This document shows positions 4,875 to 59,858 of a DNA stretch of 64,000 nt, one piece after another. Position numbers and translations under genes: made by a program. The stretch's first letter is position 1; each line of letters starts with the position of its first letter. The DNA comes from a virus. Under the pieces are notes generated by a model, which was given only the letters and a program-made list of their open reading frames with translations, had not been told where the DNA came from and searched no databases. Location: positions 59,466-123,465 of the IMG/VR virus record IMGVR_UViG_3300011113_000491, one strand, 5' to 3'.

Positions 4875-5492
4875 TTATCCGTTTCTTATCACAGAAACAC
4901 CATCTGCTGACATTCCAGAGAAATGTGTTGCAATTTTCGCCATTTTTTCGTGATCTCTACCCCCACCGCTTTTTATTGATGGTATGACTCTGAGATCCAT
5001 ATGTGTATCCAAGAACGCCGGAATATCGGTGATCTTCCTTTGAGTTATGGGGGAAACAGACTTTAGTGCAATATGTTCATCGTCACCAATGTCCTTTGCG
5101 GCCGCACCATGTAATCTTTCTACCACTTTACGTCTCGGAGAGAAATGTTTACCATCAAATGTGCTCAAGAATACAGGGGAGTGATTCTGTATTATATCTT
5201 CGTGATGAACAAATACAATCGGTTTTGTATTTGGTTTGTAAACTGCAACCCAAGGAACCTTGCTCGTGTTTCCTTCTCTCTGAAGTGCATATGGTGCAAT
5301 CAGTCCAACATTAGATCCTGCATAGACACCACTGAATGGTTTGTGTCCTTCGAGTGGCATATCCCCTCTCTGACTATTTCCATGTCTATCCATCACATAT
5401 GGTTTTGGATCGAATTGTTCTACTGGTTTATGATCCAATCGAAAAACATGGTTGGAACGAGACTCAAGAAGATACTGACGAAATGATTTCAT
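4875..5492 (-). CDS. Capsid-targeted cargo protein, unknown activity
   Basis: The 205-residue product begins MKSFRQYLLE before Ser. After the predicted cleavage site the chain has HVFRLDHKP, HKPFSGVYAGSN, APYALQRE and HHEDIIQNHSPVFLSTF. The spacing of an early Arg, a small Gly/Ala/Ser loop and a later acidic segment is loosely like a mono-ADP-ribosyltransferase, as in T4 Alt, but no convincing catalytic triad can be read. It is the last gene of a four-gene minus-strand operon of similar proteins. GGTGAG precedes the ATG. Confidence 0.7.
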   Translation of the reverse strand: MKSFRQYLLESRSNHVFRLDHKPVEQFDPKPYVMDRHGNSQRGDMPLEGHKPFSGVYAGSNVGLIAPYALQREGNTSKVPWVAVYKPNTKPIVFVHHEDIIQNHSPVFLSTFDGKHFSPRRKVVERLHGAAAKDIGDDEHIALKSVSPITQRKITDIPAFLDTHMDLRVIPSIKSGGGRDHEKMAKIATHFSGMSADGVSVIRNG

Positions 5493-5496
5493 GTTC

Positions 5497-5742
5497 TCAC
5501 CAAATTCTGTTTAATATCTGCCCATCAGGACCCATACTACTCCATCTTGTCCCTGTTCCCGTTGTATCAAAGACAGCATCTTCCGTTCCCATCTTATGTC
5601 CTTCTAAGTAGTGTGGATTGTCTTTGTGATCTGCATGGTGACTCAAATTAAAGAATCCATGCTCAAACCCTAAACTAAAAGCCTTTTGTTCTGCTTCGGT
5701 TCTTTTGTTTTCTTTTAGAAATTTTTTGAAAGAGAGCATCAT
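5497..5742 (-). CDS. Capsid-targeting-peptide protein, small
   Basis: The 81-residue product begins MMLSFKKFLKE before Asn, a variant targeting peptide with an L-K-E site. The rest is rich in His, Gly and Phe (LGFEHGFFNLSHHADHKDNPHY), with no family I recognise. It overlaps the upstream gene by four bases and lies four bases ahead of the next one. Confidence 0.65.
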   Translation of the reverse strand: MMLSFKKFLKENKRTEAEQKAFSLGFEHGFFNLSHHADHKDNPHYLEGHKMGTEDAVFDTTGTGTRWSSMGPDGQILNRIW

Positions 5743-46389: not shown

Positions 46390-47378
46390 GATGTAAATAC
46401 CAATTGTGCTTTCAGTCCTTCAAATACATTGCTCTCAAGAATATTGTTAACAAAATCAATACCGTTCTTGAGAACCATGTCATTTATATCTTTCTCTTTA
46501 CAATAATCTGGCCAAACACAAACCTTATGTCCAGATTCAATCAACTTCTTTTGAATCTCAACTGTGTCATAGTTTCTTGGTTCGTTATCCAAAACAAAGA
46601 CTGCTTCTGGAAAAATCTTTGACATATCAATAAAGGATCCAGTACCAAGACATGCTACACTGTTCTTGAGGAATGTGCTGTCGAGTGGACCTTCTACAAT
46701 GTAGATGGGTTCATCCTTCTTAAGTTTGTCAATACCAAACATCAGTTTTGTGTTTTCCTTTTTGATGGTAAGATACTTTGGTGCATTTTTCTTACAGGTT
46801 ATACATCTACCCTGCGCTCCAACTACCTCGCCTTTCTCGTCACGGATCAGTATAATGATTCGTGGTTCCTCTTTTGCATTATAACTTTCGTCAAATTGTT
46901 TTGCGAAGAGTGAGAAGTTATCAGTATACCCCATATCACCCCATCTGTCTTCAGGAATCTTTCTAGATTGCAGAAACTCCATGCATTCTTTTGATGATTT
47001 GGCTGGGGTAAAATGATCTACTTTTTTAGCAAATACAGGGGTAGAATCATATGGATATAGTTTCTCTTGAGTTGGTTTCTTGTAATTTGCTTTTCCATCC
47101 TCACCGGCAATAAATCGCTCAAGAGCATACTGCTTACAGAGATATGGTGAAACTTTCTCTAGAAAATTATAAAGATTACAACCAACCCCGCAGTTATGAC
47201 AACGATAAAAGAAATCACTGCCTTTTTGATAAAAGAATCCTCTGGCAACAGTCTTTCTCTTGGTAGAATCCCCACAGATAGGACATCTGCAATTTGCAAG
47301 ATTATCTTTCTTCCACTTGAATCTCTTCAATAGTGGGGAAACCATACCAATGTATTTCTTATCAATGTAGGTTGACAT
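46374..47378 (-). CDS. 61: DNA primase, gp61-type
   Basis: The 334-residue product has an N-terminal zinc-binding domain (CRCPICGD ... YRCHNCGVG, residues about 30-65) and a TOPRIM region (EPIYIVEGPLDSTFL; VFVLDNEPRN) near residues 225-280, the DnaG/T4 gp61 arrangement. It primes lagging-strand synthesis with the helicase encoded just upstream. The ATG at 47378 is preferred (MSTYIDKKYIGM). It overlaps the dehydratase gene by 17 bases. Confidence 0.9.
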   Translation of the reverse strand: MSTYIDKKYIGMVSPLLKRFKWKKDNLANCRCPICGDSTKRKTVARGFFYQKGSDFFYRCHNCGVGCNLYNFLEKVSPYLCKQYALERFIAGEDGKANYKKPTQEKLYPYDSTPVFAKKVDHFTPAKSSKECMEFLQSRKIPEDRWGDMGYTDNFSLFAKQFDESYNAKEEPRIIILIRDEKGEVVGAQGRCITCKKNAPKYLTIKKENTKLMFGIDKLKKDEPIYIVEGPLDSTFLKNSVACLGTGSFIDMSKIFPEAVFVLDNEPRNYDTVEIQKKLIESGHKVCVWPDYCKEKDINDMVLKNGIDFVNNILESNVFEGLKAQLVFTSWKRV

Positions 47379-48345
47379 TTTGCATCCAGTAATCAACCAT
47401 CTCTGACATCATGTCTTCGAAAGTGATTGTTGGCTCCCATCCCATTTCTCTCTTTGCCTTGCTAGCATCACCACGAAGGTAATGAAGTTCTTCTGGTCGC
47501 TCGTACTTCTTGTCAGTCTTTACATACTGCCGATAATCCATACCGAGATATTCGAAGACATATTCAACCATGTCTTCTACTGAGTATGAATGGCCAGTAG
47601 CAAGAACATAATCGTCTGGGTATGGCATCTGAAGCATGTTCCACATACCACGAACATAATCCTTGGCATGTCCCCAGTCTCTCTTGGCTCTTAGATTACC
47701 AAGAACCAGGGTCTTCTCCATTCCGAGCTTGATCTTTGCTGCTTGGAGTGCTACCTTGTTCGTCACGAAATTAATACCTCTGCGAGGAGATTCGTGATTG
47801 AACAAAATTCCTGAGCAAATAAACATACCATATGCGTTTCTGTAGTTGTGACATAGGTTGTGGGCGTAGAGCTTGGCACAACCGTATGGGCTTACAGGAG
47901 ACATATGAGTTGTTTCTCTCTGGTACTTGTCATCATCACATGAATTACCGAACATCTCAGAAGTAGCCGCATGATACACCTTTGAGTGGGGTGAGAATCT
48001 ACGAACAGCCTCAAGGACTGCAAGAGTACCACCACCGTTTACATCAAGGGTATACTTTGGAAGATCGAATGAAACTTGAACATGAGACTGTGCGGCAAGA
48101 TGATAAACTTCATTTGGTTGCAGCTTCTGAATGTTTGTTTCAATGCTGATCGGATCGGTCAAGTCTGCATAGTGCAGTTTAATTTTCTCATCCACCCATA
48201 GTTTATTGATGCGCGTTGTTTGTGACTCTGGGACAGAGTTTCTACGAATAGTCCCATGAACCTCATATCCCTTCTCAACAAGTAGTTCTGCAAGATATGA
48301 TGCATCCTGGCCATTGGCCCCGATAATTAGTGCTATCTTTGACAT
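47362..48345 (-). CDS. gmd: GDP-mannose 4,6-dehydratase
   Basis: The 327-residue product begins MSKIALIIGANGQDASYLAELL with the Gly-rich NAD(P) site. It has HLAAQSHV, ATSEMFG, the catalytic YGCAK and the C-terminal PEELHYLRGDASKAKREMGW. It turns GDP-mannose into GDP-4-keto-6-deoxymannose, the entry to fucose-type sugars. It is found in several cyanophages and may change surface sugars. It lies between primase and helicase and overlaps the primase gene. Confidence 0.92.
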   Translation of the reverse strand: MSKIALIIGANGQDASYLAELLVEKGYEVHGTIRRNSVPESQTTRINKLWVDEKIKLHYADLTDPISIETNIQKLQPNEVYHLAAQSHVQVSFDLPKYTLDVNGGGTLAVLEAVRRFSPHSKVYHAATSEMFGNSCDDDKYQRETTHMSPVSPYGCAKLYAHNLCHNYRNAYGMFICSGILFNHESPRRGINFVTNKVALQAAKIKLGMEKTLVLGNLRAKRDWGHAKDYVRGMWNMLQMPYPDDYVLATGHSYSVEDMVEYVFEYLGMDYRQYVKTDKKYERPEELHYLRGDASKAKREMGWEPTITFEDMMSEMVDYWMQNVNLH

Positions 48346-48346
48346 G

Positions 48347-49744
48347 TTAAACTTTCCAATCACTGGTCTTTGCAAGGTTTCGTGGTTTTGCTTTGCTAAA
48401 GAAGTTTTGCTCTTCATCCTTTTGCTTCTTGGCAGCATCGCTGATGAATCCTTGATCTTCGGCAGAAACATCATACATCTTCATCTTAGCACGGTTGACA
48501 CCAACAATGAACTTGCGATTCTTTGCTTTGTCGTTATACCGATTCTTTAACTGCTTCACCATGATCTGATTAACTTCATCAAGTTCTTCTGTTGCAATCA
48601 AAGCAAACATTAGATCTGATGTTGCAGGAAGTCCAAAGGATTCTGAAGTATTTTCAAGATCAACATCTGTGTTACCATAACCTTCACGATTAGTCTGTGT
48701 AGCAGTAAACAGAGGAACATTGTATTCGATTGCAAGTCCTCGTAGTTCTTCTGCAATAGACTTCACATATTCGTAAGAGTTAACATTCTTTGAACCCTTG
48801 TGTCGAGAAGATGCACAGATGTTTAGATAATCAATGAAGATCACATCGGGAACAAACTTCTTCTTTAGTTTTAGTTCATCTAGAAGGAATCTAAAGTGAT
48901 TCGCATTTGCCGTGGCAGTTGGATATTCTTTGATGATTAGTTTCCCAGTCACACCAGCAGCAACTGCCTCAAGTTTCTTGTCGTAGACGGTCTTTGGCAT
49001 TGTTTTAAGATCGTCAATGTTTGTATCAAGAAGATTCGCATCGATTCTTTCTGCGATTCGTTCTTCTGCCATCTCACAAGTGATGTAGAGAACATTCATG
49101 CTACTCTTGAGACAGTGTGCTGCATGGTGACAAAGGAATAGAGACTTACCCACTCCAGTTCCTGCCATTACTACATTGAGTGTCTTGGCAGTTACACCAT
49201 CTCTGGTGATGGAGTTGAAGAACTCCAGATCAAACGGAATCTTCTTCTCTTCCTTGTGGTAGAAGTCGTATCGTTTGTCTGCGTCTTCAATATAATCATG
49301 TCCGATGTTGGGGTCAAAAGATACCGCAAGTGCCTTACTGAGAATATCAGGAATCTCGCCATCGCCTCTAGCAGACTTGCCATCAATGATGTTGATGGAT
49401 TCCATTATGGCGTTGTAGATTGCTTTCTTACGACAGAACTCTTCAGTTTCTTTCGTCAACCAGTCTAGATCAACTTTGTCAGCATCAGAAGTGATTGACT
49501 CCACAACATCGGAAATATCCTTGACTTGTACTTCGGTTAGATTCTTTTCCTTGTCAAGAATAATAATCAACGCTTCCTTGGTGGGAAGACCGTTGTACTT
49601 GAGAAAGTAATCCCTAACAGTTTCAAAGATGAATCTTTCAGAGAAGTTATGAAAGTACTCCTTTAGTAAAAAGGGAGATACTTTTCTTGCAAAGTTTTCG
49701 TCTTTGATTAGGTTATGTAGGATTACTTGCTCAATATTATTCAT
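48347..49744 (-). CDS. 41: Replicative DNA helicase, gp41/DnaB-type
   Basis: The 465-residue product has an N-terminal helical domain and a RecA-type core with Walker A ([12 protein letters not shown], residues about 192-203), [17 protein letters not shown] and Walker B ([11 protein letters not shown]). The Gln-containing motif [11 protein letters not shown] follows. It unwinds DNA at the fork with the gp61-type primase. It overlaps UvsX by eight bases. Confidence 0.92.
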
Positions 49745-50786
49745 TTTCTTCCTCTACTACTGCTTCAGTTGATCCATACTTGAATTCTGATGCAGCTGCT
49801 TCGTTGATCTTGTCCATTAATTCCTTGGTAAAATACTTCTCAGGGTTTTCATAGATGTTCTTTTCAAACACCTTTGAACCATCTGGTAGTTCGATTCTAC
49901 CACTTGTCTTTGAGAGTATACCATGTTCTACTGCTAAGTCAACCAAACCATAATAAGGGTCTAAACCTGTTTCATAATTAAGACGGACATCAACGACCTT
50001 GTTTTCTTTTGTAAGACGACCCTTGTGTTGCTTGCAATGAATAATGTTGCCAACAACTTCACCAGAGGCATCCTTGTCCTTCTTCTTTGAAAGATAGACA
50101 ACAATTGATGCGGCGTACTTAAGACCAGAACCACCACCCATCTCCTTCATTGGAACATATGCACCAACTACATCATAAGTGTGATTAGTAATAATCATTG
50201 GAATATGGGCAATGCCAAGTTTAACAGTCAACACACGGAAAGTTGACTTGATAACTTGCGCCCTGGTCATATCACGAACTTCCTTTCCTTCGGCAGTATC
50301 GTTGATTTCCTTTGAGGTTGACAACATGCCGAGTGAGTCAAGAACAATCATCATCTTCTTTCTCTTGTTCTCTGGCATCTCAAGATACTTGTCAACAATC
50401 GTGACAATCTGCTTGCGGAACTCTTCAATTGTCATCACAGGAAAAACTGCTACACGCTTTGGATCGACTCCACGATTCTTAAACATTTCAGTTGTTACTG
50501 CTTGCTCTGAATCAAAGTAGAGAACAACTGCTTCAGGGTGATCCTTGAGGAACTTGGAAACAATACCCATAGTAATATAGGTCTTACCAGTTGCCTGTTC
50601 TCCTGCAAGTGCCATAATCTTGTTGTCAGGAATGCCACCATAAACATCACCAGAAACAAGGGCATTCAGAATGTGACATCCAGTATCAATGAGAACACCG
50701 ACATCACTTGTCGGAAGTCCATCGTTTACCAATGACGCATACTTGTTTCCAGACTCCTTAACGATACCATTCAAAAAATCACTCAT
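49737..50786 (-). CDS. uvsX: UvsX/RecA-like recombinase
   Basis: The 349-residue product has Walker A ([10 protein letters not shown], about residue 62-71), [12 protein letters not shown], Walker B ([11 protein letters not shown]) and the loop [29 protein letters not shown] follows, as in T4 UvsX. It forms filaments on single-stranded DNA for recombination-dependent replication. AAGGAG precedes the ATG at 50786. Acidic C-terminal tail (EAVVEEENE). Confidence 0.92.
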
Positions 50787-50819: not shown

Positions 50820-51401
50820 TTACTGATTTTCCTTGATGTCATAATAATAACAATCATCTTCTCCGTCAATAATCCACTTATCACTTTCTCCCTCGCATCT
50901 CCAAGAAATGTTATCTACCAGATAGTCTGGCTTTTCTGGAAATGGTTCGGTTACAAATGACATATTCTTCCAAAAAATTCTGTTGTTTGGTTGAAGAGCA
51001 TAATTGCCATCATCCAAAGCAATCATATGAAGACATTTATATTGACTTGGCTCATCTGAAAATGAGTTCCTATACCAGTCAAATGTCATCATATAATTAC
51101 CCCATGCTTCAGTCTTATCCTTAAAGACAACCTTCGCTCTACAATCAAACAAAGCATCATATTCAATTGCAGTTACATTTTCATGGAAACAATCCCACAA
51201 CTGAAGATAATCCAACTTCATCAGAGGAGTATCTGGTTTAGAACAAAGCATATGAATTGGAACTCTGCTCCTGACTAATCCATTGTCTGTAAGAACATGA
51301 AAGGTCATTGCTTTACCAGAGCATGATTGCGCTCCGAATACTTGAACCTTTACATATTCACCAACATGCTTTTTATGCTGGTACATATGCTCCATACGCA
51401 T
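50820..51401 (-). CDS. Conserved phage protein next to DNA polymerase
   Basis: The product is about 193 residues from the ATG at 51401 (MRMEHMYQHKKHVGEYV). It has MTFDWYRNSF, SQYKCLHMIALDDGNYALQPNNRIFWK and an acidic tail, a pattern I associate with T4-like cyanophage proteins of unknown role. The open frame continues upstream through IPHFYCY to 51488. Its first part is there an out-of-frame reading of a relic polymerase 3' end, so the true start may be a TTG within it. Confidence 0.65.
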   Translation of the reverse strand: MRMEHMYQHKKHVGEYVKVQVFGAQSCSGKAMTFHVLTDNGLVRSRVPIHMLCSKPDTPLMKLDYLQLWDCFHENVTAIEYDALFDCRAKVVFKDKTEAWGNYMMTFDWYRNSFSDEPSQYKCLHMIALDDGNYALQPNNRIFWKNMSFVTEPFPEKPDYLVDNISWRCEGESDKWIIDGEDDCYYYDIKENQ

Positions 51402-51429
51402 ATAGCAATAAAAATGTGGAATGTTTATG

Positions 51430-51486
51430 TTAAGCAAATAATGACTCCAAAGTACTAACTCGTTCTGCTTTCCAGTTGATTGCTGC
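51430..51486 (-). pseudogene. 43: Relic of the DNA polymerase 3' end
   Basis: In the polymerase frame this encodes AAINWKAERVSTLESLFA and a stop, against AAINWKAERVSTLESLFE at the end of the polymerase gene at 52478. 32 bases are identical and most remaining differences are synonymous. It marks where the gene originally ended before the glycosyltransferase cassette entered. Confidence 0.85.
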
Positions 51487-51500
51487 ATATCATAATTATA

Positions 51501-52436
51501 TTAAATGTCGTCTAAGTTAGACTTATCCCATTTGTTTTTTGTGCATTTTTTGACAGCAATTGAATGTTTTTCTTTTTGTGGATTTACATACTGTTGACTG
51601 TTTAACCATTTTTGTGATAAATATTTTGTATGATATTTTTGCGGTAAATAAATGTGTGCGTTACAAGAGGCGTAATGAAATATAATACTAGGAACTGGCT
51701 CTAGAGTAATATCGATAACTTTATTAACACCATGACTAATTTTTTTATCTGGAGGGCTCCAGTTTATTTTGTTTACATTCAAAGAAATAATTGGTATTTT
51801 GTAATCAACAAAACACATCTGAGCACAATATTGTTCATTAAAAAAACAAAATTTTTCATATTCTAATTTAGTTATATTATTAGAACCTAACAAATATTTA
51901 GCATTGTTGTTTAAAACAAGTCTTCTATTAACAATCGTTTTATAAAAGTTGGGTATTTGTTCAAACACGGTTCGGTCTAACACAACATGGCCACTATTGA
52001 TTCCAGCTTGTTTTAACAAAATGTCGTTAACTCTGCTCTTTATTTCCCGCAAACAATATACAGAACCAATATCATAATCAAAAAATTCACTAGGATCATC
52101 AAAAAATATAGTATCACAATCTAAGAAAAAAACTTTGTCATATCCTAATTCAAAAGTTTTTTGTATATGATACCACTTGCTCATATGGGGATCGTCACTA
52201 TAATCACTTAAAATAAATTTAACGTCTGGAAAATCATTTTTAAGACAAAATTGATTAAGGTGGTTATAGTTTAATAAATCAAAGTTTTTATTATCAGAAC
52301 ACATCATCACTATAACATCAAAGGGCGATTTGATTGTTTGTTTTTTTAAGGTATACAAACTATAGTGCAACATGGAAAAAAACTCTCCTTGACTATTTGC
52401 TTTATGAAACAAACTATACAAAAGGGCATTTTTCAT
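51501..52436 (-). CDS. GT8-type glycosyltransferase in an inserted cassette
   Basis: The 311-residue product has DVIVMMCSDNKNF, YDKVFFLDCDTIFFDDPSEFF (D-x-D) and INSGHVVLDRT, the GT8-style order. It is very AT-rich compared with the flanking replication genes. It lies between the polymerase gene's present 3' end and a duplicate relic of that end, so it entered as a cassette carrying a replacement polymerase tail. It could modify DNA, virion or surface sugars. Confidence 0.78.
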   Translation of the reverse strand: MKNALLYSLFHKANSQGEFFSMLHYSLYTLKKQTIKSPFDVIVMMCSDNKNFDLLNYNHLNQFCLKNDFPDVKFILSDYSDDPHMSKWYHIQKTFELGYDKVFFLDCDTIFFDDPSEFFDYDIGSVYCLREIKSRVNDILLKQAGINSGHVVLDRTVFEQIPNFYKTIVNRRLVLNNNAKYLLGSNNITKLEYEKFCFFNEQYCAQMCFVDYKIPIISLNVNKINWSPPDKKISHGVNKVIDITLEPVPSIIFHYASCNAHIYLPQKYHTKYLSQKWLNSQQYVNPQKEKHSIAVKKCTKNKWDKSNLDDI

Positions 52437-52477
52437 AATTTATATTCTTCAAACAATAAACTTAAGTAATTCTTACA

Positions 52478-53593
52478 TCATTCAAACAATGACTCTAATG
52501 TGCTAACTCGTTCTGCTTTCCAGTTGATTGCTGCAAGAATGGAACGAAGCGGTTCCATGAATGCTTTGTCAAACTGCATATCATAGTCTATGTAGTGATC
52601 AAGCTCAAACTCCTTTGGAATCTCGTTAATAAAAGAAATCACATGATCTTGACCACTGACACCACCAATTGGATTTGGTTTCTTCAGATATACAAACTTG
52701 ATCTTATCTCCGTCTGTAATCTGCTTGTACTTCTTATCCAACTTGTACTTCTTGATGTAATGATTGTAAATCAACGCACCCTTAACTTGAATCGGCGTTG
52801 ACTTACGATATATCTGTTGATTGTCGGCATACTCACCAAGACCATTTGCACTTCTCGGGAATGCTACATCTTCGGGACGATACTTCATAAACCTCTGACG
52901 TACATCATCAATGAAATCAATTAGTGAGTCCTCGTCCTTGCTCATTATGATCTTGATTGCAGATTCAAGATCCTTACGAACCGCTTCTGGTGTAGAACTG
53001 CGTGTTGTTTCGATACCCATGATCTTCAACTTGGGTTCTTTATACTGAACACCTTCCTTATTCCACATGTTTAGAATGTATCGCTTCTTTGCAGTCCAGA
53101 TGCCCTTCTCTGCGATGACTTCACGACCCATTACCATCTTGTTTTCATATGCATTCATGCTGTCGCGGAGTTTATCAAACTCTTTGTCGATGAAGGGTTG
53201 AATTATTGAATCACATGCCTTGTCAAGATATTTTGTAATCTTTACTGGATCGGTTTCATTTGGCATAATTTTGGTTACCAATTTATCCAGACAAATATAC
53301 ATTGAGTCTGTGTCTGAGGCAACGATATAGTCTTCGCCCGTTGTACCAAGAGTCTGATTCAACAATCGATTAATTGAGTTTGCGATATACTGAATTGAAA
53401 GTTGACCAGAAAGAGTAATTGCTTCTGCAATATCAGTGCTAAAATACCTGAAGTATTCATTACCGATTGCACCATATGCAGAGTTCAATTGAATCTTTCT
53501 AACCAACTGAAAGTTTGAATATTTTGATATGTCATATTCAAGGTTCTTCTTCAATGCAAGAAGTTCCTCGTCAGACAGTTTACTGTAGTCCAT
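52478..53593 (-). CDS. 43: DNA polymerase, family B, C-terminal part
   Basis: The 371-residue product starts MDYSKLSDEELLALKKN and reaches the motif B region KIQLNSAYGAIGNEYFRY at about residues 33-50. It has motif C ASDTDSMYI and the GIETTRSSTPEAVRKDLE thumb element, as in T4 gp43. It lacks the exonuclease and motif A, which are in the gene at 56615. The two chains total about 860 residues, near the 898 of T4 gp43, so they should assemble into one enzyme. Split gp43 is known in some Aeromonas T4-like phages. Confidence 0.9.
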   Translation of the reverse strand: MDYSKLSDEELLALKKNLEYDISKYSNFQLVRKIQLNSAYGAIGNEYFRYFSTDIAEAITLSGQLSIQYIANSINRLLNQTLGTTGEDYIVASDTDSMYICLDKLVTKIMPNETDPVKITKYLDKACDSIIQPFIDKEFDKLRDSMNAYENKMVMGREVIAEKGIWTAKKRYILNMWNKEGVQYKEPKLKIMGIETTRSSTPEAVRKDLESAIKIIMSKDEDSLIDFIDDVRQRFMKYRPEDVAFPRSANGLGEYADNQQIYRKSTPIQVKGALIYNHYIKKYKLDKKYKQITDGDKIKFVYLKKPNPIGGVSGQDHVISFINEIPKEFELDHYIDYDMQFDKAFMEPLRSILAAINWKAERVSTLESLFE

Positions 53594-53623
53594 AGGTATA
53601 TTTTATCACAAGACGCTAGAAAG

Positions 53624-54220
53624 TCAAGTGTTGTTGATTTGTTTATATTGAGTGCAGGATGTCTGTATAATATCTTTTAGAGATATTGGTGCGTAATTAA
53701 GACCTTCCGAGTCTACACCTACATCAAAACTTAGATATCCTCTATTTGAACTGGTCATAAATCCGTGTTTGCCGTGAGAATGACCGTGTAGATGCACTGG
53801 TGTTTTTGAATTCCAAGAACGAAGAGGATAATGCGAAAGACATATTCTTTCGACATAAAAGTTTTGAACCCAACCCGGTTCGTTCTTTATATTCATTTCA
53901 AGATAATTACAAACACTCTTAAACTTTGCTTTCTTGAGATTTTCAGATTGCATAGTTGGGTCGTGATTGCCAATTACTAGATGTACCTTTTGGCATTTTA
54001 TTTCCGAAAGGATATCATTCACTCCATTTACCCAGTGCTTACCTTTACCAAAGTAAAAGTCACCGAGGTGATATAGAGTATCCTTTGCCGCTACATGCTC
54101 ATTGATCTTATCAATCAGCATCTTGTTCATTTCTTTTATATCTTTGAAATATTGATGCCGGTTGGTTAGATTTAGAATGTTAGTGTGGCCGAAATGAGAA
54201 TCGCTTGTGAACCAAATCAT
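53624..54220 (-). CDS. Calcineurin-like phosphoesterase
   Basis: The 198-residue product has the metallophosphoesterase series TSDSHFGH, LGDFYFG, IGNHDP, LSHYPLR and HLHGHSHG, supplying a two-metal site. Phage members are often phosphodiesterases or nucleases acting on nucleotides or DNA ends; the substrate here is unknown. It lies in the interval that separates the polymerase halves and overlaps the upstream gene by four bases. Confidence 0.88.
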   Translation of the reverse strand: MIWFTSDSHFGHTNILNLTNRHQYFKDIKEMNKMLIDKINEHVAAKDTLYHLGDFYFGKGKHWVNGVNDILSEIKCQKVHLVIGNHDPTMQSENLKKAKFKSVCNYLEMNIKNEPGWVQNFYVERICLSHYPLRSWNSKTPVHLHGHSHGKHGFMTSSNRGYLSFDVGVDSEGLNYAPISLKDIIQTSCTQYKQINNT

Positions 54221-54402
54221 CCTAGTAGAAGATCGCGGTTATCGTTTCTGTCTTCGTTTATCTTACGATCTGCTTCCGTCCAACCTAAGTTATACTCTCT
54301 CCAATATGCATCATTTGTTTCGTTAAGAATTGACTTATTTGGAAGACTGTTTTTTCTGTCCGTGTATCCGTCTAGAAATCCTTTGCCCGGTTGATGTGTC
54401 AT
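54217..54402 (-). CDS. Small hypothetical protein
   Basis: From the ATG at 54402 the 61-residue product begins MTHQPGKGFLDGYTDRKN and continues with NDAYWREYNLGWTEADRKINEDR, a compact helical pattern. It overlaps the end of the next upstream gene in another frame by 68 bases and the phosphoesterase start by four. A longer start at 54441 is possible. Confidence 0.6.
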   Translation of the reverse strand: MTHQPGKGFLDGYTDRKNSLPNKSILNETNDAYWREYNLGWTEADRKINEDRNDNRDLLLG

Positions 54403-54502
54403 TTTTCTTCTTTCCGAATATGGCATCGTAATTTTCGCCATACTTCTTTAAATCCACTTTACGGTAAGAATCACCCTTACCAGCACCATGTTTCCTACTC
54501 AT
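54335..54502 (-). CDS. Small conserved phage protein (MSRKHGAGKGD type)
   Basis: The 55-residue product begins MSRKHGAGKGDSYRKVDLKK, then YGENYDAIFGKK and a basic tail. I recognise this start from small proteins in many T4-like and cyanophage genomes; their function is unknown. It uses a frame different from the gene at 54217 and overlaps it, a gene-in-gene arrangement. Confidence 0.75.
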   Translation of the reverse strand: MSRKHGAGKGDSYRKVDLKKYGENYDAIFGKKKNDTSTGQRISRRIHGQKKQSSK

Positions 54503-54504
54503 AT

Positions 54505-54813
54505 TTAGTCTGCGCCGTTAATGATATTATCAAAATTTGTAGGTTCACCAATACGATCAGCAAACTTCTTAGTGAGAACTATTCCCTCATCCGTATATGT
54601 TAACCACAACCCCTCTCGCATCAATTCTTTCATTGCGATAAGTTCATCGTTATCAAACTGCGAGACAACAATAGGATCATCGTCAATCAAACCTTCAATG
54701 ATTTCTACTTCAACATTCTTTGCCCATTTTGCGGCATAAAAAGTTTCAGAGTAGGAGGTTATTGCTTTTTCAATCTTGTTCTTCAACGCTTGTAGTCGAT
54801 ATATTTGTGTCAT
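54505..54813 (-). CDS. Hypothetical protein
   Basis: The 102-residue product is helical and acidic (MTQIYRLQALKNKIEKAI, IAMKELMREGLWLTYTDEG). It is not recognised. The ATG is five bases after GATAAATA (54819-54826), a near match to the late octamer with the leaderless spacing. Confidence 0.65.
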   Translation of the reverse strand: MTQIYRLQALKNKIEKAITSYSETFYAAKWAKNVEVEIIEGLIDDDPIVVSQFDNDELIAMKELMREGLWLTYTDEGIVLTKKFADRIGEPTNFDNIINGAD

Positions 54814-54985
54814 GATTATATTTATCCATGAATACTGAGATCATCAAGGGGTAGTGCTTGACGACATGGCGGGCCCTTTCACGAATATACTTAGGCACTT
54901 TTGGTGTCTTCTTGGGATCAAGCAGATCATACATGAACTGCCGGCACGATTCAAGTGAACGAATTTCTTCTTCTAAAGTTGACAT
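54770..54985 (-). CDS. Small hypothetical protein fused in transcript to tRNA-Asn
   Basis: The 71-residue product begins MSTLEEEIRSLESCRQFMYDLL and contains YIRERARHVVKHYPLMI. It is not recognised. The ATG lies only two bases after the 3' end of tRNA-Asn, so tRNA processing would create a nearly leaderless message. It overlaps the next gene by 44 bases. Confidence 0.6.
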   Translation of the reverse strand: MSTLEEEIRSLESCRQFMYDLLDPKKTPKVPKYIRERARHVVKHYPLMISVFMDKYNHDTNISTTSVEEQD

Positions 54986-54987
54986 AA

Positions 54988-55060
54988 CTCTTCGGACTGG
55001 GATCGAACCAGTGACATTGGAGTTAACAGCTCCACGCTCTACCATCTGAGCTACCGAAGA
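54988..55060 (-). tRNA. tRNA-Asn (GUU)
   Basis: A full cloverleaf can be read. The acceptor is TCTTCGG/CCGAAGA, the D arm GCTC/GAGC, the anticodon loop CTGTTAA (GTT), and the T arm ACTGG-TTCGATC-CCAGT. The discriminator is G, as is usual for Asn. Confidence 0.92.
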
Positions 55061-55067
55061 AAAATAA

Positions 55068-55637
55068 TTATAAAATAGATCTACTCTTATCAAGTGTCCA
55101 AAAACTTGCTACAGTATATCTTGTACAATTTTTAATTGGGGTTACACCATGAAGATGAACACAATCTCCGGGATGAATTGCTAGTTTACCCATTTTAGGA
55201 GTAATTTCAATATTAAAATTTGGATAATAAGTTTTTCCTCCTTCATAATCATCATTCAGATATAATACGCAACCAAATACTCTATGTCCAAATTTCTTAA
55301 CTTCTTCACTATTATTGGACATATCATCGCAGTGTGGAGTTTGTTGCATTCCTTCAAACCATCTAATTAAATCAATAGTGTCTGGATATATCTCTTGTAT
55401 ACCATACTCAGATATAATAGTTTTTTGAGTATTAATCATCAAAGATTTAAAGATATTCTTATATTCTGGATCTGTAAATTTTTGATAATTTATCTGTCTG
55501 CCAGACCAAAAATCATATGGGTGTGTTGCGGTTTCAGATTCTTTCCACATATCCGTACTGTTAGCAAAATTTATAAGCATCTCACACTCTGGAACGGAAA
55601 GAAAATTATCAAATGTTTTTGCGTTAAAATTATTCAT
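55068..55637 (-). CDS. 2-oxoglutarate/Fe(II) oxygenase
   Basis: The 189-residue product has TPHCDD (the His-x-Asp iron motif, about residue 107), VLYLNDDYEGGKTYYP, HPGDCVHLHGVTP (the distal His) and CTRYTVASFW (the Arg that binds 2-oxoglutarate). This is the prolyl-hydroxylase-like PKHD arrangement common in T4-like cyanophages. The substrate is unknown. AGGAGAAAA precedes the ATG, and it overlaps the DUF6065-type gene by eight bases. Confidence 0.88.
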   Translation of the reverse strand: MNNFNAKTFDNFLSVPECEMLINFANSTDMWKESETATHPYDFWSGRQINYQKFTDPEYKNIFKSLMINTQKTIISEYGIQEIYPDTIDLIRWFEGMQQTPHCDDMSNNSEEVKKFGHRVFGCVLYLNDDYEGGKTYYPNFNIEITPKMGKLAIHPGDCVHLHGVTPIKNCTRYTVASFWTLDKSRSIL

Positions 55638-56424
55638 TGTTTTCTCCTAAATTTTTATTAATAAAAGGACATCCTGATATTCTACGTTGATGATCTGGAA
55701 ATACTTTATTATTTTCAATGTCATAAATTCCTTTCATGTATAATTTATGATTGGAATTATGTGGTTGAGTTTTTTGTAACTCGTCTCTTTTTTTTGCCCA
55801 AGCTTTATGTGTTTTCGAAAAATCAGAGTCATGTTCTCCCTGTTCGATTATACAATCAAAAGACTCTAGATAATATCTAGGTATAGGAAATATTGTTGCT
55901 AATGGTTCACCCTTTAGAAAAGTTACAGTTTCATATGGTTTTGTAATTTTCCAATTTAATGTAAATGTATAAGGAAGCCAGTCAGTCTCAATTATTGCCT
56001 CTAATGCTTGAGCTCCATGTCTAAAAAAGTTTGTTGGACCTTTAACAAATAGATTATGACCAGGACTTGTTTTAAAAATATATCTTAGGTAACTAAAAGT
56101 AATTATTCCATTTCCAAAATGAGAAGATATATGACTAGGCCGATCTTCAACAAAATCAAGATCGTCCATTGTTTCTACACAAAACTCAAACTTAATTGCG
56201 TTATGTGAACTTAAGTTTCCATTCCATATTGCAGTAAAGGAAATTGGATTAATAATCTCCCATCCATAACCATTTGCTACACTAAGAGGAAGACATCTAT
56301 ATGCATATCCATTGGATACATCCATCCATTCTCTTCTCTTTGCTGCTACAACAAGATCATAAGAACTTTTTCCTTCTCCCGGAAGTAGCCATTGTGTTAG
56401 TTTTTTATCTTTTTCAATAGACAT
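55630..56424 (-). CDS. DUF6065-type protein
   Basis: The 264-residue product has AKRREWMDVSNGYAYRCLPLSVANGYGWEI and a jelly-roll-like body ending with IYDIENNKVFPDHQRRISGCPF. I associate this with the DUF6065 phage/bacterial group, found next to 2OG-Fe(II) oxygenases. Its coupling to such an oxygenase here supports a shared job. Its activity is unknown. Confidence 0.7.
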   Translation of the reverse strand: MSIEKDKKLTQWLLPGEGKSSYDLVVAAKRREWMDVSNGYAYRCLPLSVANGYGWEIINPISFTAIWNGNLSSHNAIKFEFCVETMDDLDFVEDRPSHISSHFGNGIITFSYLRYIFKTSPGHNLFVKGPTNFFRHGAQALEAIIETDWLPYTFTLNWKITKPYETVTFLKGEPLATIFPIPRYYLESFDCIIEQGEHDSDFSKTHKAWAKKRDELQKTQPHNSNHKLYMKGIYDIENNKVFPDHQRRISGCPFINKNLGENNE

Positions 56425-56444
56425 AGTAAAAATGTTATATTAAA

Positions 56445-56516
56445 AGAGGATGACGGGAGTTGAACCCGCAACATCTACCTTGGAAGGGTAGCACTCTGCC
56501 ATTGAGTTACATCCTC
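56445..56516 (-). tRNA. tRNA-Gly (UCC)
   Basis: The acceptor is GAGGATG/CATCCTC, the anticodon stem CTACC/GGTAG with loop CTTCCAA (TCC), and the T arm GCGGG-TTCAACT-CCCGT. The discriminator is U, as in glycine tRNAs. Confidence 0.92.
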
Positions 56517-56521
56517 AGCAA

Positions 56522-56606
56522 TAGGACCGGCGGGAATCGAACCCGCATGGTTTTTGAAACCGAGGGATTTTAAGTCCCTTGCGTCTGCCTGTTCCGCCAC
56601 AGTCCC
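56522..56606 (-). tRNA. tRNA-Leu (UAA)
   Basis: An 85-base type II tRNA with a long variable arm. The anticodon stem is AGGGA/TCCCT with loop CTTAAAA (TAA), the acceptor is GGGACTG/CGGTCCT, and the discriminator is A. Confidence 0.92.
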
Positions 56607-56614
56607 GAACATGT

Positions 56615-58084
56615 TTATAGTATACCACGATTCTTCATCTCTGCAACAACTTTTTCAAGTTCCTTTTGAGATTCAATCATTTTAACCTTAAACATTTTAC
56701 GGTCTTGATACATCTTATCCATCAGTTCAGGAAGAAATCCACGCCGTTCTTTTGTATAAGTCGTGCCGTTGGCGGCAACAGATACATTATGTTGCCGCAT
56801 CTCGTCAACATAATCTTTGCCCATTTGCGATCCGCTCAATAGATCATTTACTGCAATATTATTTCTGCCGCCGTGAGAAGTCTTTGTGTCGGGGGAAATG
56901 TTGTACTGCATGATAAGATGGGGATATAGGGAGTTCAAGTCAAATGAAACAATCCACTTGTGCATTCCAGTAATTGGATCCTTAACATAAGCACCAGCAT
57001 ACTGATCGTCTTTAGATGACTTACCCTTTGGTGGTATGGCAATCTTCTGTTTTGCAAGGTGATTGTAGATAATCACATCCCATGTTTTGACTTGAGAAAA
57101 TACATCCGTGAAGTTTACCCCTGCACTATATGCAAGTGCAAGGGCGAGTTCCAATAGTTTCAGCCTATCCTCAAGGCGTTCGACAAGGCGGACATCTTGG
57201 ATATTATATTCGATAAACTTCTGGAAATTCTTTGTATAAAATTCTTGAATGCTTTCATATTCCTTGTATGAGAGTTTGTTTTCTCCCAACTCAACATAGG
57301 CTATGTAGTCAAGGCGATATGATTCTCTGTTTACATATGTGAACTTTTGATAAAGTTCATAGTAATCTAGTGTAGAGATACCAACCAAATCATAAACAGT
57401 CTTTTCCCTACCACCCTTGTCTATAACATTCTTGTCTCTGATCATCCCCCAAGGAGAAAGTTCCTTGGTTTTGTTCTTTCCAAGAACCATGAGCATCCGA
57501 TTGTAAAGATAAGGAATGTCGAAGAACCTTACATTCCACCCAGTCAAAACATGAGGATAATCATTACTGAAATACTTGAGAAATGCTAGAAGCACTTCCT
57601 TCTCATCGTGATGACAGAATACAACCTCATCACCCTTTGCTTTGTATTCTCCACGACAAAACACATAAGGTTTTCCTCCACGACGAGTTATGGTGATTGC
57701 TAGGATTTCTTCGATTGGATTTTCAAATGATGGGAATCCACTGTCTGCTGTAGTCTCAATATCAAAATAGGCGATATCGACATCATTTACATTGTACTGT
57801 CCATCGTAGTTATCACGAATATACTGATACTCTGCACCAATCTCCCCGTGGATCTCAAATCCTTGGACTCCATCATACTTCTTGATAAAATCCCTCGCCT
57901 CTGTATTGGATTCAAACTTCATTTCTTTAAGAGGAACGCCGTCAATTGACTTCCAATCTCCGGCAGGCGCCTTGACATACAGAGAGGGTTCATATGCCAT
58001 TCTGAAATCATTCTTCAGACCATTGTTAACTTCACGGCACAGAACTTGTGTTCCGTATGAAAAGACATTCATATATTGTCGCAT
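56615..58084 (-). CDS. 43: DNA polymerase, family B, N-terminal part
   Basis: The 489-residue product has the 3'-5' exonuclease motifs (AYFDIETTADSG; VLTGWNVRFFDIPYLYNR; a C-terminal exonuclease Asp region) and polymerase motif A (SFDLNSLYPHLIMQYNISP). It ends in a helical tail (MIESQKELEKVVAEMKNRGIL). Motifs B and C are in the separate gene at 52478. The break lies between palm motifs A and B, so both chains are needed for activity. tRNA-Leu begins nine bases after the stop. Confidence 0.9.
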   Translation of the reverse strand: MRQYMNVFSYGTQVLCREVNNGLKNDFRMAYEPSLYVKAPAGDWKSIDGVPLKEMKFESNTEARDFIKKYDGVQGFEIHGEIGAEYQYIRDNYDGQYNVNDVDIAYFDIETTADSGFPSFENPIEEILAITITRRGGKPYVFCRGEYKAKGDEVVFCHHDEKEVLLAFLKYFSNDYPHVLTGWNVRFFDIPYLYNRMLMVLGKNKTKELSPWGMIRDKNVIDKGGREKTVYDLVGISTLDYYELYQKFTYVNRESYRLDYIAYVELGENKLSYKEYESIQEFYTKNFQKFIEYNIQDVRLVERLEDRLKLLELALALAYSAGVNFTDVFSQVKTWDVIIYNHLAKQKIAIPPKGKSSKDDQYAGAYVKDPITGMHKWIVSFDLNSLYPHLIMQYNISPDTKTSHGGRNNIAVNDLLSGSQMGKDYVDEMRQHNVSVAANGTTYTKERRGFLPELMDKMYQDRKMFKVKMIESQKELEKVVAEMKNRGIL

Positions 58085-58574: not shown

Positions 58575-59858
58575 TTACTCCAGTACATCATCAAGTGTAG
58601 CATTTGCAAAAGGAATGTCAATTGATACATTTTTGTTTTTAGAGAAACACCAAATGTTTTCAATGAAGCAGGAAGATAGATGATTTTTTAGATCTTCCTT
58701 TTCCATCTTCTTTGGTCGCTGCTTGATACGCATACCGATTTGACCGCAGAAGTTTGCATTATACGAATTTACAAAATTATCAACGAGGAAATCACAGGTA
58801 CGATGACGAACTCTATTCACTGTTGGATCCATGATATTAATCATCATCATACCAGTTTCTGAAAGTGTGTCATATGCCAACTCCGTAACATTCTTGAAGA
58901 AGTGCTTTTCCCAATTATCGTATTCTGGGTATCTACTCCAAGACTGATTCTCTTCTTTCTCTCCGCCTTTGTTATACATCTCCGTAGAAAAGTATGGAGG
59001 AGAAGTGAAAACAAGATCCACTGTTCCCTTTTCTGGCCACCATGAAGTATCCTCAGCAGGAAGATTAGAAACATAAACTGTTTTTGTTCCAGTGCATGTA
59101 AATCCATTTTCAGTTTGTCTTACGACAGGATTGCTTCCTAACATTCTCTCATACTCCATACACTGCTCTAGATAAACTTTGAACGTATTTGGATTTGGAT
59201 CTACACCATAAAACACTTTTGCATTTGATGCATAGAATCCTGCAAGACGATCACCCCATCCCATACTAAAATCTAGTACAGTGTTTGCGTTTGCAAAGTC
59301 ATATAATGTTTTTGCTACATGTGGTTTAAATTGTGTTGCAACATATGCACCAAGACGGAACGATCCACGAATGTTTGTTTCATTAATCGTATTGGTTCCC
59401 ATTCTCCAAAATATCCAGTTCATCTTCTTAAGAAGTTCAAGATCATTCCATATCTCTAGTGGAGACTTGAACCCGTAAGAAGGACATGCCATTCTATTTG
59501 CCTGTTGAAAGTAATTACTAATGTCATTGTAATAATGACCGAACTCAATTACAAACTTACCATGCTTTGAATATGGATACTTGTAATCGTTGTATTTTTC
59601 AACTACAGTGCTTGGATCAGGAACAGTAATAAAATTACTGTAATGTTCATTGGCAAGAGAAAATAGTTTATCCTTTACATCTAGTAAAGAAATAGGACGA
59701 AAAGGAAAACTTGGTTTTGTGTCATTAATAAATTCTGCAAATCCGTCAATAATCTGTCTCTTATTGAAATTATCATTAAGAACCTCCCACTCGTCAATGT
59801 CTATCTCTGGGATACCGCGAGAGTTTACTGACTTTTCAAAAACTTCACGAATACTCAT
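58575..59858 (-). CDS. DNA methyltransferase-like protein (TSPPY)
   Basis: The 427-residue product has an AdoMet-binding region (VLDFSMGWGDRLAGFYAS, about residues 193-210; GVDPNPNT) and the catalytic motif FTSPPYFS near residue 290. A TSPPY motif marks amino-methyltransferases of adenine or cytosine. The N-terminal 180 residues are helical and unrecognised. It may protect or mark phage DNA. The start overlaps dut by four bases. Confidence 0.82.
   Translation of the reverse strand: MSIREVFEKSVNSRGIPEIDIDEWEVLNDNFNKRQIIDGFAEFINDTKPSFPFRPISLLDVKDKLFSLANEHYSNFITVPDPSTVVEKYNDYKYPYSKHGKFVIEFGHYYNDISNYFQQANRMACPSYGFKSPLEIWNDLELLKKMNWIFWRMGTNTINETNIRGSFRLGAYVATQFKPHVAKTLYDFANANTVLDFSMGWGDRLAGFYASNAKVFYGVDPNPNTFKVYLEQCMEYERMLGSNPVVRQTENGFTCTGTKTVYVSNLPAEDTSWWPEKGTVDLVFTSPPYFSTEMYNKGGEKEENQSWSRYPEYDNWEKHFFKNVTELAYDTLSETGMMMINIMDPTVNRVRHRTCDFLVDNFVNSYNANFCGQIGMRIKQRPKKMEKEDLKNHLSSCFIENIWCFSKNKNVSIDIPFANATLDDVLE

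Follow-up and report, generated by a model that had tools for sequence, protein, structure and literature searches.

The closest known case of an insertion that brings a second copy of its host gene's end is that of the mobile open reading frames (ORFs) with C-terminal duplication in fungal mitochondria, described from Allomyces atp6 and from Glomus atp6, atp9, cox2 and nad3 (PMC3630166). These insert at the 3' end of an essential gene: a foreign end is fused in frame and used, the native end, which matches that of a close relative, is displaced downstream, the two ends differ largely by synonymous changes, and an endonuclease gene lies between them. We describe a comparable anatomy at the end of the DNA polymerase gene (gp43) in a 64,000-nt stretch of viral DNA (the window; positions 59,466 to 123,465 of IMG/VR record IMGVR_UViG_3300011113_000491) and in three of the viral contigs compared with it, which carry L-numbers as labels. 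The phage loci share this layout; the foreign in-use end and the match of the displaced end to a close relative are seen in L096, L206 and L271, and the endonuclease gene is present in L206 and L271. They differ from the fungal ones in their setting (a replication operon with overlapping genes), in their enzymes (GIY-YIG and HNH, whereas the fungal enzymes are mostly LAGLIDADG) and in that two of the four cases, the window included, carry other cargo and no endonuclease. Since the window lacks the endonuclease gene, it is a variant of the fungal type and not a member of it.

Among phages, the nearest parallel is intronless homing in T4-type phages, which includes collaborative and trans homing and the example of seg43 at gene 43 of Aeromonas phage 25 (PMC2988022). 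In the part of that review covered here, endonuclease genes stand free next to essential replication genes, infection is mixed, flanks are co-converted and mobilisation can occur in trans, all of which resembles what we propose below, but displaced target-gene ends are not described and the string 'duplicat' is absent from the text. T5orf172 and AP2-associated HNH endonucleases, which appear to be the same two kinds as those of L271 and L206, have been reported near essential phage genes at borders of genetic exchange, but with no displaced gene ends in the portion of the paper covered (PMC10448857). The synthetic HomeR home-and-rescue drive works similarly, in that its cassette, with cargo and a re-coded rescue end, goes into the 3' end of the coding sequence of an essential polymerase-subunit gene (PMC7968924), but it is Cas9-based and operates in insects, and no kinship is implied. 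A targeted search of open-licence literature returned only a fungal paper. Within that literature, insertion with a copied polymerase tail appears to be undescribed in phages.

In the window, the polymerase gene, of T4 type, is split, and the last 18 codons and stop codon of its C-terminal half occur twice on the minus strand, once at the end of the gene (copy A) and again downstream of an inserted gene (copy B; Table 1). The leading 32 bases of the two copies are identical (33 including a flanking T), and of the six codons that differ, four are synonymous, one is an E-to-A change in the last codon and one is the stop itself (TGA/TAA). When the tail was compared with the 2.6 kb downstream, the best ungapped nucleotide self-match scored 43, against 14.5 for the best chance-like match among 243 distinct polymerase tails, and a six-frame tail-profile scan gave copy B 49 bits versus 13.5 for the best chance match. 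These scores lie far above chance and confirm that the duplication is real. The first-pass annotation, which had reported the repeated 18 codons, the 32 identical bases and mostly synonymous remaining changes, was thus accurate on the anatomy. The polymerase itself is divided into 489 and 371 amino acids by a gap of about 3 kb (53594-56614) containing three tRNA genes, a 2OG oxygenase, a DUF6065 protein and a metallophosphatase; in L029, a phrog_3704 gene is located inside the polymerase-splitting gap.

Table 1 Features of the window around the duplicated polymerase tail.
Feature	Position	Strand	Basis
uvsX recombinase, directly after the polymerase in the closest relatives	49737..50786	-	phrog_97 E=2.6e-82
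phrog_3704 gene, 205 aa from a TTG start overlapping the copy B stop	50820..51437	-	phrog_3704 E=9.9e-51
Copy B, displaced polymerase tail resembling copy A in its 5' part and the L086 lineage in its 3' part	51430..51486	-	Sequence comparison
GGAG in copy B, likely ribosome site, 7 nt before the TTG start of the phrog_3704 gene	51445..51448	-	Sequence
AT-rich insert encoding 311 aa, weakly assigned as a putative GT-A-type glycosyltransferase	51501..52436	-	ORF; PF03407 below cutoff
Copy A, in-use tail of the polymerase C-terminal half	52478..52534	-	Sequence comparison
Polymerase C-terminal half (gp43)	52478..53593	-	phrog_262 E=1.4e-140
Polymerase N-terminal half (gp43)	56615..58084	-	phrog_262 E=3.7e-163

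The closest relatives, L001, L003 and L002, whose polymerases are 94, 91 and 88% identical to that of the window, have uvsX almost directly after the polymerase and lack the glycosyltransferase gene, phrog_3704 and a second tail. The comparison with cargo-free relatives that had been recommended at first pass thus finds a single tail, and the absence of both genes there marks two genes in the window as extra. We considered whether the window has a third remnant of the tail before uvsX and do not claim one, as only the stop and the ribosome site resemble the relatives.

The gene between the copies stands out in composition: its G+C content is 28.0%, while the polymerase half has 38.4% and the window 42.1%. 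Its product matches PF03407 only below the cutoff (E=0.0015), matches no GT8 profile above cutoff and finds nothing in PHROGs or NCBIfam; a DxD-like motif (FLDCDT) and the motif GINSGHVVLDR, both recognised by eye, fit a GT-A glycosyltransferase. The gene is AT-rich and lies between the copies, as had been stated, but the 'GT8' label given to it is not established, since the weak PF03407 match is the only one. No donor or relatives of the gene were found in phages, viral contigs or genome contigs, and AF2 models of its product and of the phrog_3704 product were too poor for a fold search. The initial statement that no endonuclease gene is present here also stands: none was seen at the site, where the insert is the putative glycosyltransferase gene. 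Across the window's whole record phrog_953 was the sole endonuclease family searched, and it gave no match in a search whose control was uninformative.

Displaced tails at the same site occur elsewhere. A survey of about 250 distinct polymerase ends in viral contigs, combining the tail-profile scan with nucleotide self-comparison, yielded three further cases (L096, L206 and L271), and the other cargo flanked by polymerase-end copies that the first-pass annotation had proposed looking for thus exists at three independent loci, of which two carry an endonuclease gene. In L206 the order is tail, HNH endonuclease gene (AP2-type; phrog_953 E=3.7e-71), displaced tail and mom gene; the empty site is seen in L229, whose in-use tail has the same last ~44 nt as the displaced tail of L206. 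In L271 the tail is followed by a GIY-YIG endonuclease gene (MUG113/T5orf172; E=7.5e-14 and 6e-12), whose last seven codons are the displaced tail, and then by a 2OG oxygenase gene. The empty sites for L271 are L267 and L273, which carry the sequence of the displaced tail with one base different and none, respectively; the end of the in-use tail of L271 encodes the same protein sequence as their tails through synonymous changes. L096 has phrog_3704 as cargo and no endonuclease gene seen at the site: in nucleotides 4-692 (94% to L092), a tail of L092 type precedes phrog_3704 and the opening bases of the donor uvsX, and from the junction at nt 692 the contig continues with a tail of L002 type and uvsX (97.6% to L002 across 5.6 kb).

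At all three loci the displaced copy is closer to close relatives than the in-use copy is, and these sequence comparisons show the in-use tail to be foreign and the old tail to be displaced. Because the displaced tails of L271 and L206 match empty-site relatives, the incoming cassette supplied the new tail there. The original proposal that a cassette carried its own polymerase end and pushed the old one downstream is therefore borne out in L271 and L206; the window is best read as having arisen in the same way, by analogy with these relatives.

The direct repeat with its 32-nt identical core might also have arisen if a single genome had duplicated its polymerase end in tandem, after which the copies diverged and an insertion later came to lie between them. 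We consider this very improbable, given that the displaced tails of L206 and L271 are closer to the in-use tails of other genomes than to their own, that copy B runs into an L086-like gene, and that a duplicated tail without cargo was found at none of the ~250 ends. An assembly chimera, in which reads from co-occurring phages were joined and the second tail is an artefact, deserves attention because all cases are metagenome contigs, the L096 contig starts 66 nt before its first stop codon and the window repeat has a 33-nt exact core. We give this explanation equally little credence: the junctions between cargo and old tail share about one base and not a k-mer, the same anatomy recurs at four loci, and the tail and GIY-YIG segment of L271 is identical over 549 nt in a second sample (L374, whose contig ends before the displaced tail). 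An apparent move of the GIY-YIG cassette into a polymerase 88% different was also considered for L374 and rejected, because L374 is the same phage with a polymerase gap. When 3400 ORF ends were scanned more generally, few other duplicated tails emerged, and most of these were simple repeats or paralogues. A tail duplication around cargo may also exist at a different gene in an isolate, Flavobacterium phage immuto (L083 4577-5651), where the final 47 nt of ORF 186 reappear at 5605-5651 (94%), beyond a single ORF (5068-5532).

Displacement by an incoming cassette is further supported by the polymerase sequence next to the L271 insertion. The last 863 bp of this polymerase differ from L267 by 6.0%, compared with ~0.7% in the flanks (mismatches of 13/1856 to the left, 52/863 in the polymerase end and 4/480 to the right of the displaced-tail start; Fisher p=3e-17, with tract borders chosen post hoc after inspection). 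The tract is one-sided and ends sharply at the displaced tail, though the L271/L267 pair has other mosaic blocks. It is an imported co-conversion tract, as homing predicts: a break close to the polymerase end would be mended by homology-directed repair on one side and illegitimate joining on the other. A corresponding tract in the window's own polymerase was sought and rejected, as its relatives are ~10% diverged throughout with no visible step. The displaced tails start 58 (window), 51 (L096), 44 (L206; 51 with two mismatches) and ~21 nt (L271) before the end of the polymerase stop codon. The breakpoints do not fall on one exact base, but all four lie within 58 nt (p ~5e-4 if uniform over 300 nt, a post hoc value that takes very long relics to be equally detectable).

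The second extra gene of the window, phrog_3704, appears to have a history of its own. It is 97% identical in L085/L086, where it lies downstream of a dissimilar polymerase (58%), with a TTG start that overlaps the stop of the latter; L086 represents a lineage with phrog_3704 natively downstream of the polymerase. Copy B combines own-type with L086-type sequence in a mosaic: over the first 32 nt it agrees with copy A at 32/32 positions, with L001 at 29/32 and with L086 at only 15/32, and over the last 25 nt with L086 at 24/25, with L001 at 19/25 and with copy A at 18/25. This composition points to a separate exchange, with a crossover inside the polymerase tail, that imported phrog_3704, probably earlier than the glycosyltransferase insertion, so that the sequences suggest at least two events in the history of the window. 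Public records name phrog_3704 PurM or ferredoxin, neither of which is backed by a Pfam or NCBIfam match.

Copy B also holds a GGAG motif that copy A lacks. GGAG occurs a few bases before a TTG start overlapping the polymerase stop in all nine distinct phrog_3704-type tails examined, compared with one of 36 distinct tails with uvsX next. The polymerase C-terminus binds the sliding clamp in T4 and RB69 (PMC2988020), and the end of the gene seems, from these motifs, to be common to two genes, encoding the clamp-binding C-terminus and the translation start of the next gene. Since it serves both, an insertion between the two genes is harmless only when the segment is present twice, and the displaced tail probably persists for the sake of the ribosome site and start codon that it provides to the following gene. 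Copy B, which had been called a relic, is thus probably not a mere relic.

This dual role also allows an explanation with no targeting, in which co-infecting phages recombine ordinarily, only recombinants that duplicate the shared segment of stop, ribosome site and start survive, and endonuclease genes are common passengers. The start of the next gene overlaps the displaced stop in L206 and L271 as well as in the window, half of the four cases lack an endonuclease, and these phages are highly mosaic, all of which suits this explanation. L096 is an exception, retaining 51 nt of old tail though its uvsX has its own ribosome site after the stop; moreover, displaced tails exceed what a ribosome site needs in three cases, several unrelated endonuclease families occupy the slot (further endonuclease-like genes occur there in L061, L055/L202 and L222), and the L271 tract is one-sided. 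We regard untargeted recombination as possible, if on the doubtful side.

We favour, with modest confidence, the reading in which the polymerase end is a target of free-standing homing endonucleases and of cargo that travels with them or in their place. During mixed infection, the recipient polymerase gene would be cut near its 3' end (we infer that the L206 and L271 endonucleases cut there), and the break would be repaired from a donor phage having its own polymerase end followed by cargo. Repair on the polymerase side would proceed by homology, giving the recipient the donor polymerase end (with hundreds of co-converted bases in L271); on the other side, where homology is lacking, donor DNA would be joined illegitimately to the broken recipient end, inside the old tail. 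The product would be a working polymerase with a new tail, then the cargo, then the old tail, which would survive wherever the following gene relies on it for a ribosome site and start codon. In the window, the cargo would be the putative glycosyltransferase gene and the displaced tail would serve phrog_3704, the cutting enzyme having presumably acted in trans or been lost. A broader and more speculative idea, which we consider unlikely as it stands, is that natural home-and-rescue cassettes, each equipped with its own recoded tail, dock generally at the T4-type polymerase end. On this view the cutter would be dispensable, so that other genes, such as a surface-sugar enzyme or phrog_3704, would spread when the cut is made in trans, and repeated insertions would pile up cargos and old tails behind the polymerase.

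This arrangement shows a route by which new genes can enter a tight viral replication operon without breaking an essential gene, as the incoming DNA supplies the end that it replaces, and it extends to phages a mode of insertion known from fungal mitochondria. Our data suggest that the site is also available to genes that come without an endonuclease. L271/L267 and L206/L229 are natural occupied/empty pairs for direct homing tests.

Several observations concern neighbouring genes. An N6/N4 DNA methylase (PF01555; window 58575-59858, minus strand) and Mom-like DNA-modification proteins (L050, L061, L206, L214, L217 and L229) have the C-terminal peptides ATLDDVLE, TLEEFFQ and SSLEEFFE, and relatives of the methylase have ASLEDLME. 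These peptides resemble the clamp-binding tail of the polymerase, which suggests that DNA-modifying enzymes may be tethered to the sliding clamp. The polymerase-like TLEEFF ends of the Mom-like proteins were considered as captured tails and rejected, as their DNA cannot be clearly traced to the polymerase end next to them; we favour convergence on a clamp-binding peptide. A GDP-mannose 4,6-dehydratase gene, another moving cargo gene, lies between gp41 and primase in the window (47362-48342, minus strand) and between uvsX and gp41 in L092 (7594-) and L090 (1952-). In L106 (6591-8618) and L110, uvsX is interrupted by an intein-like element with an HNH-like ORF on the opposite strand.
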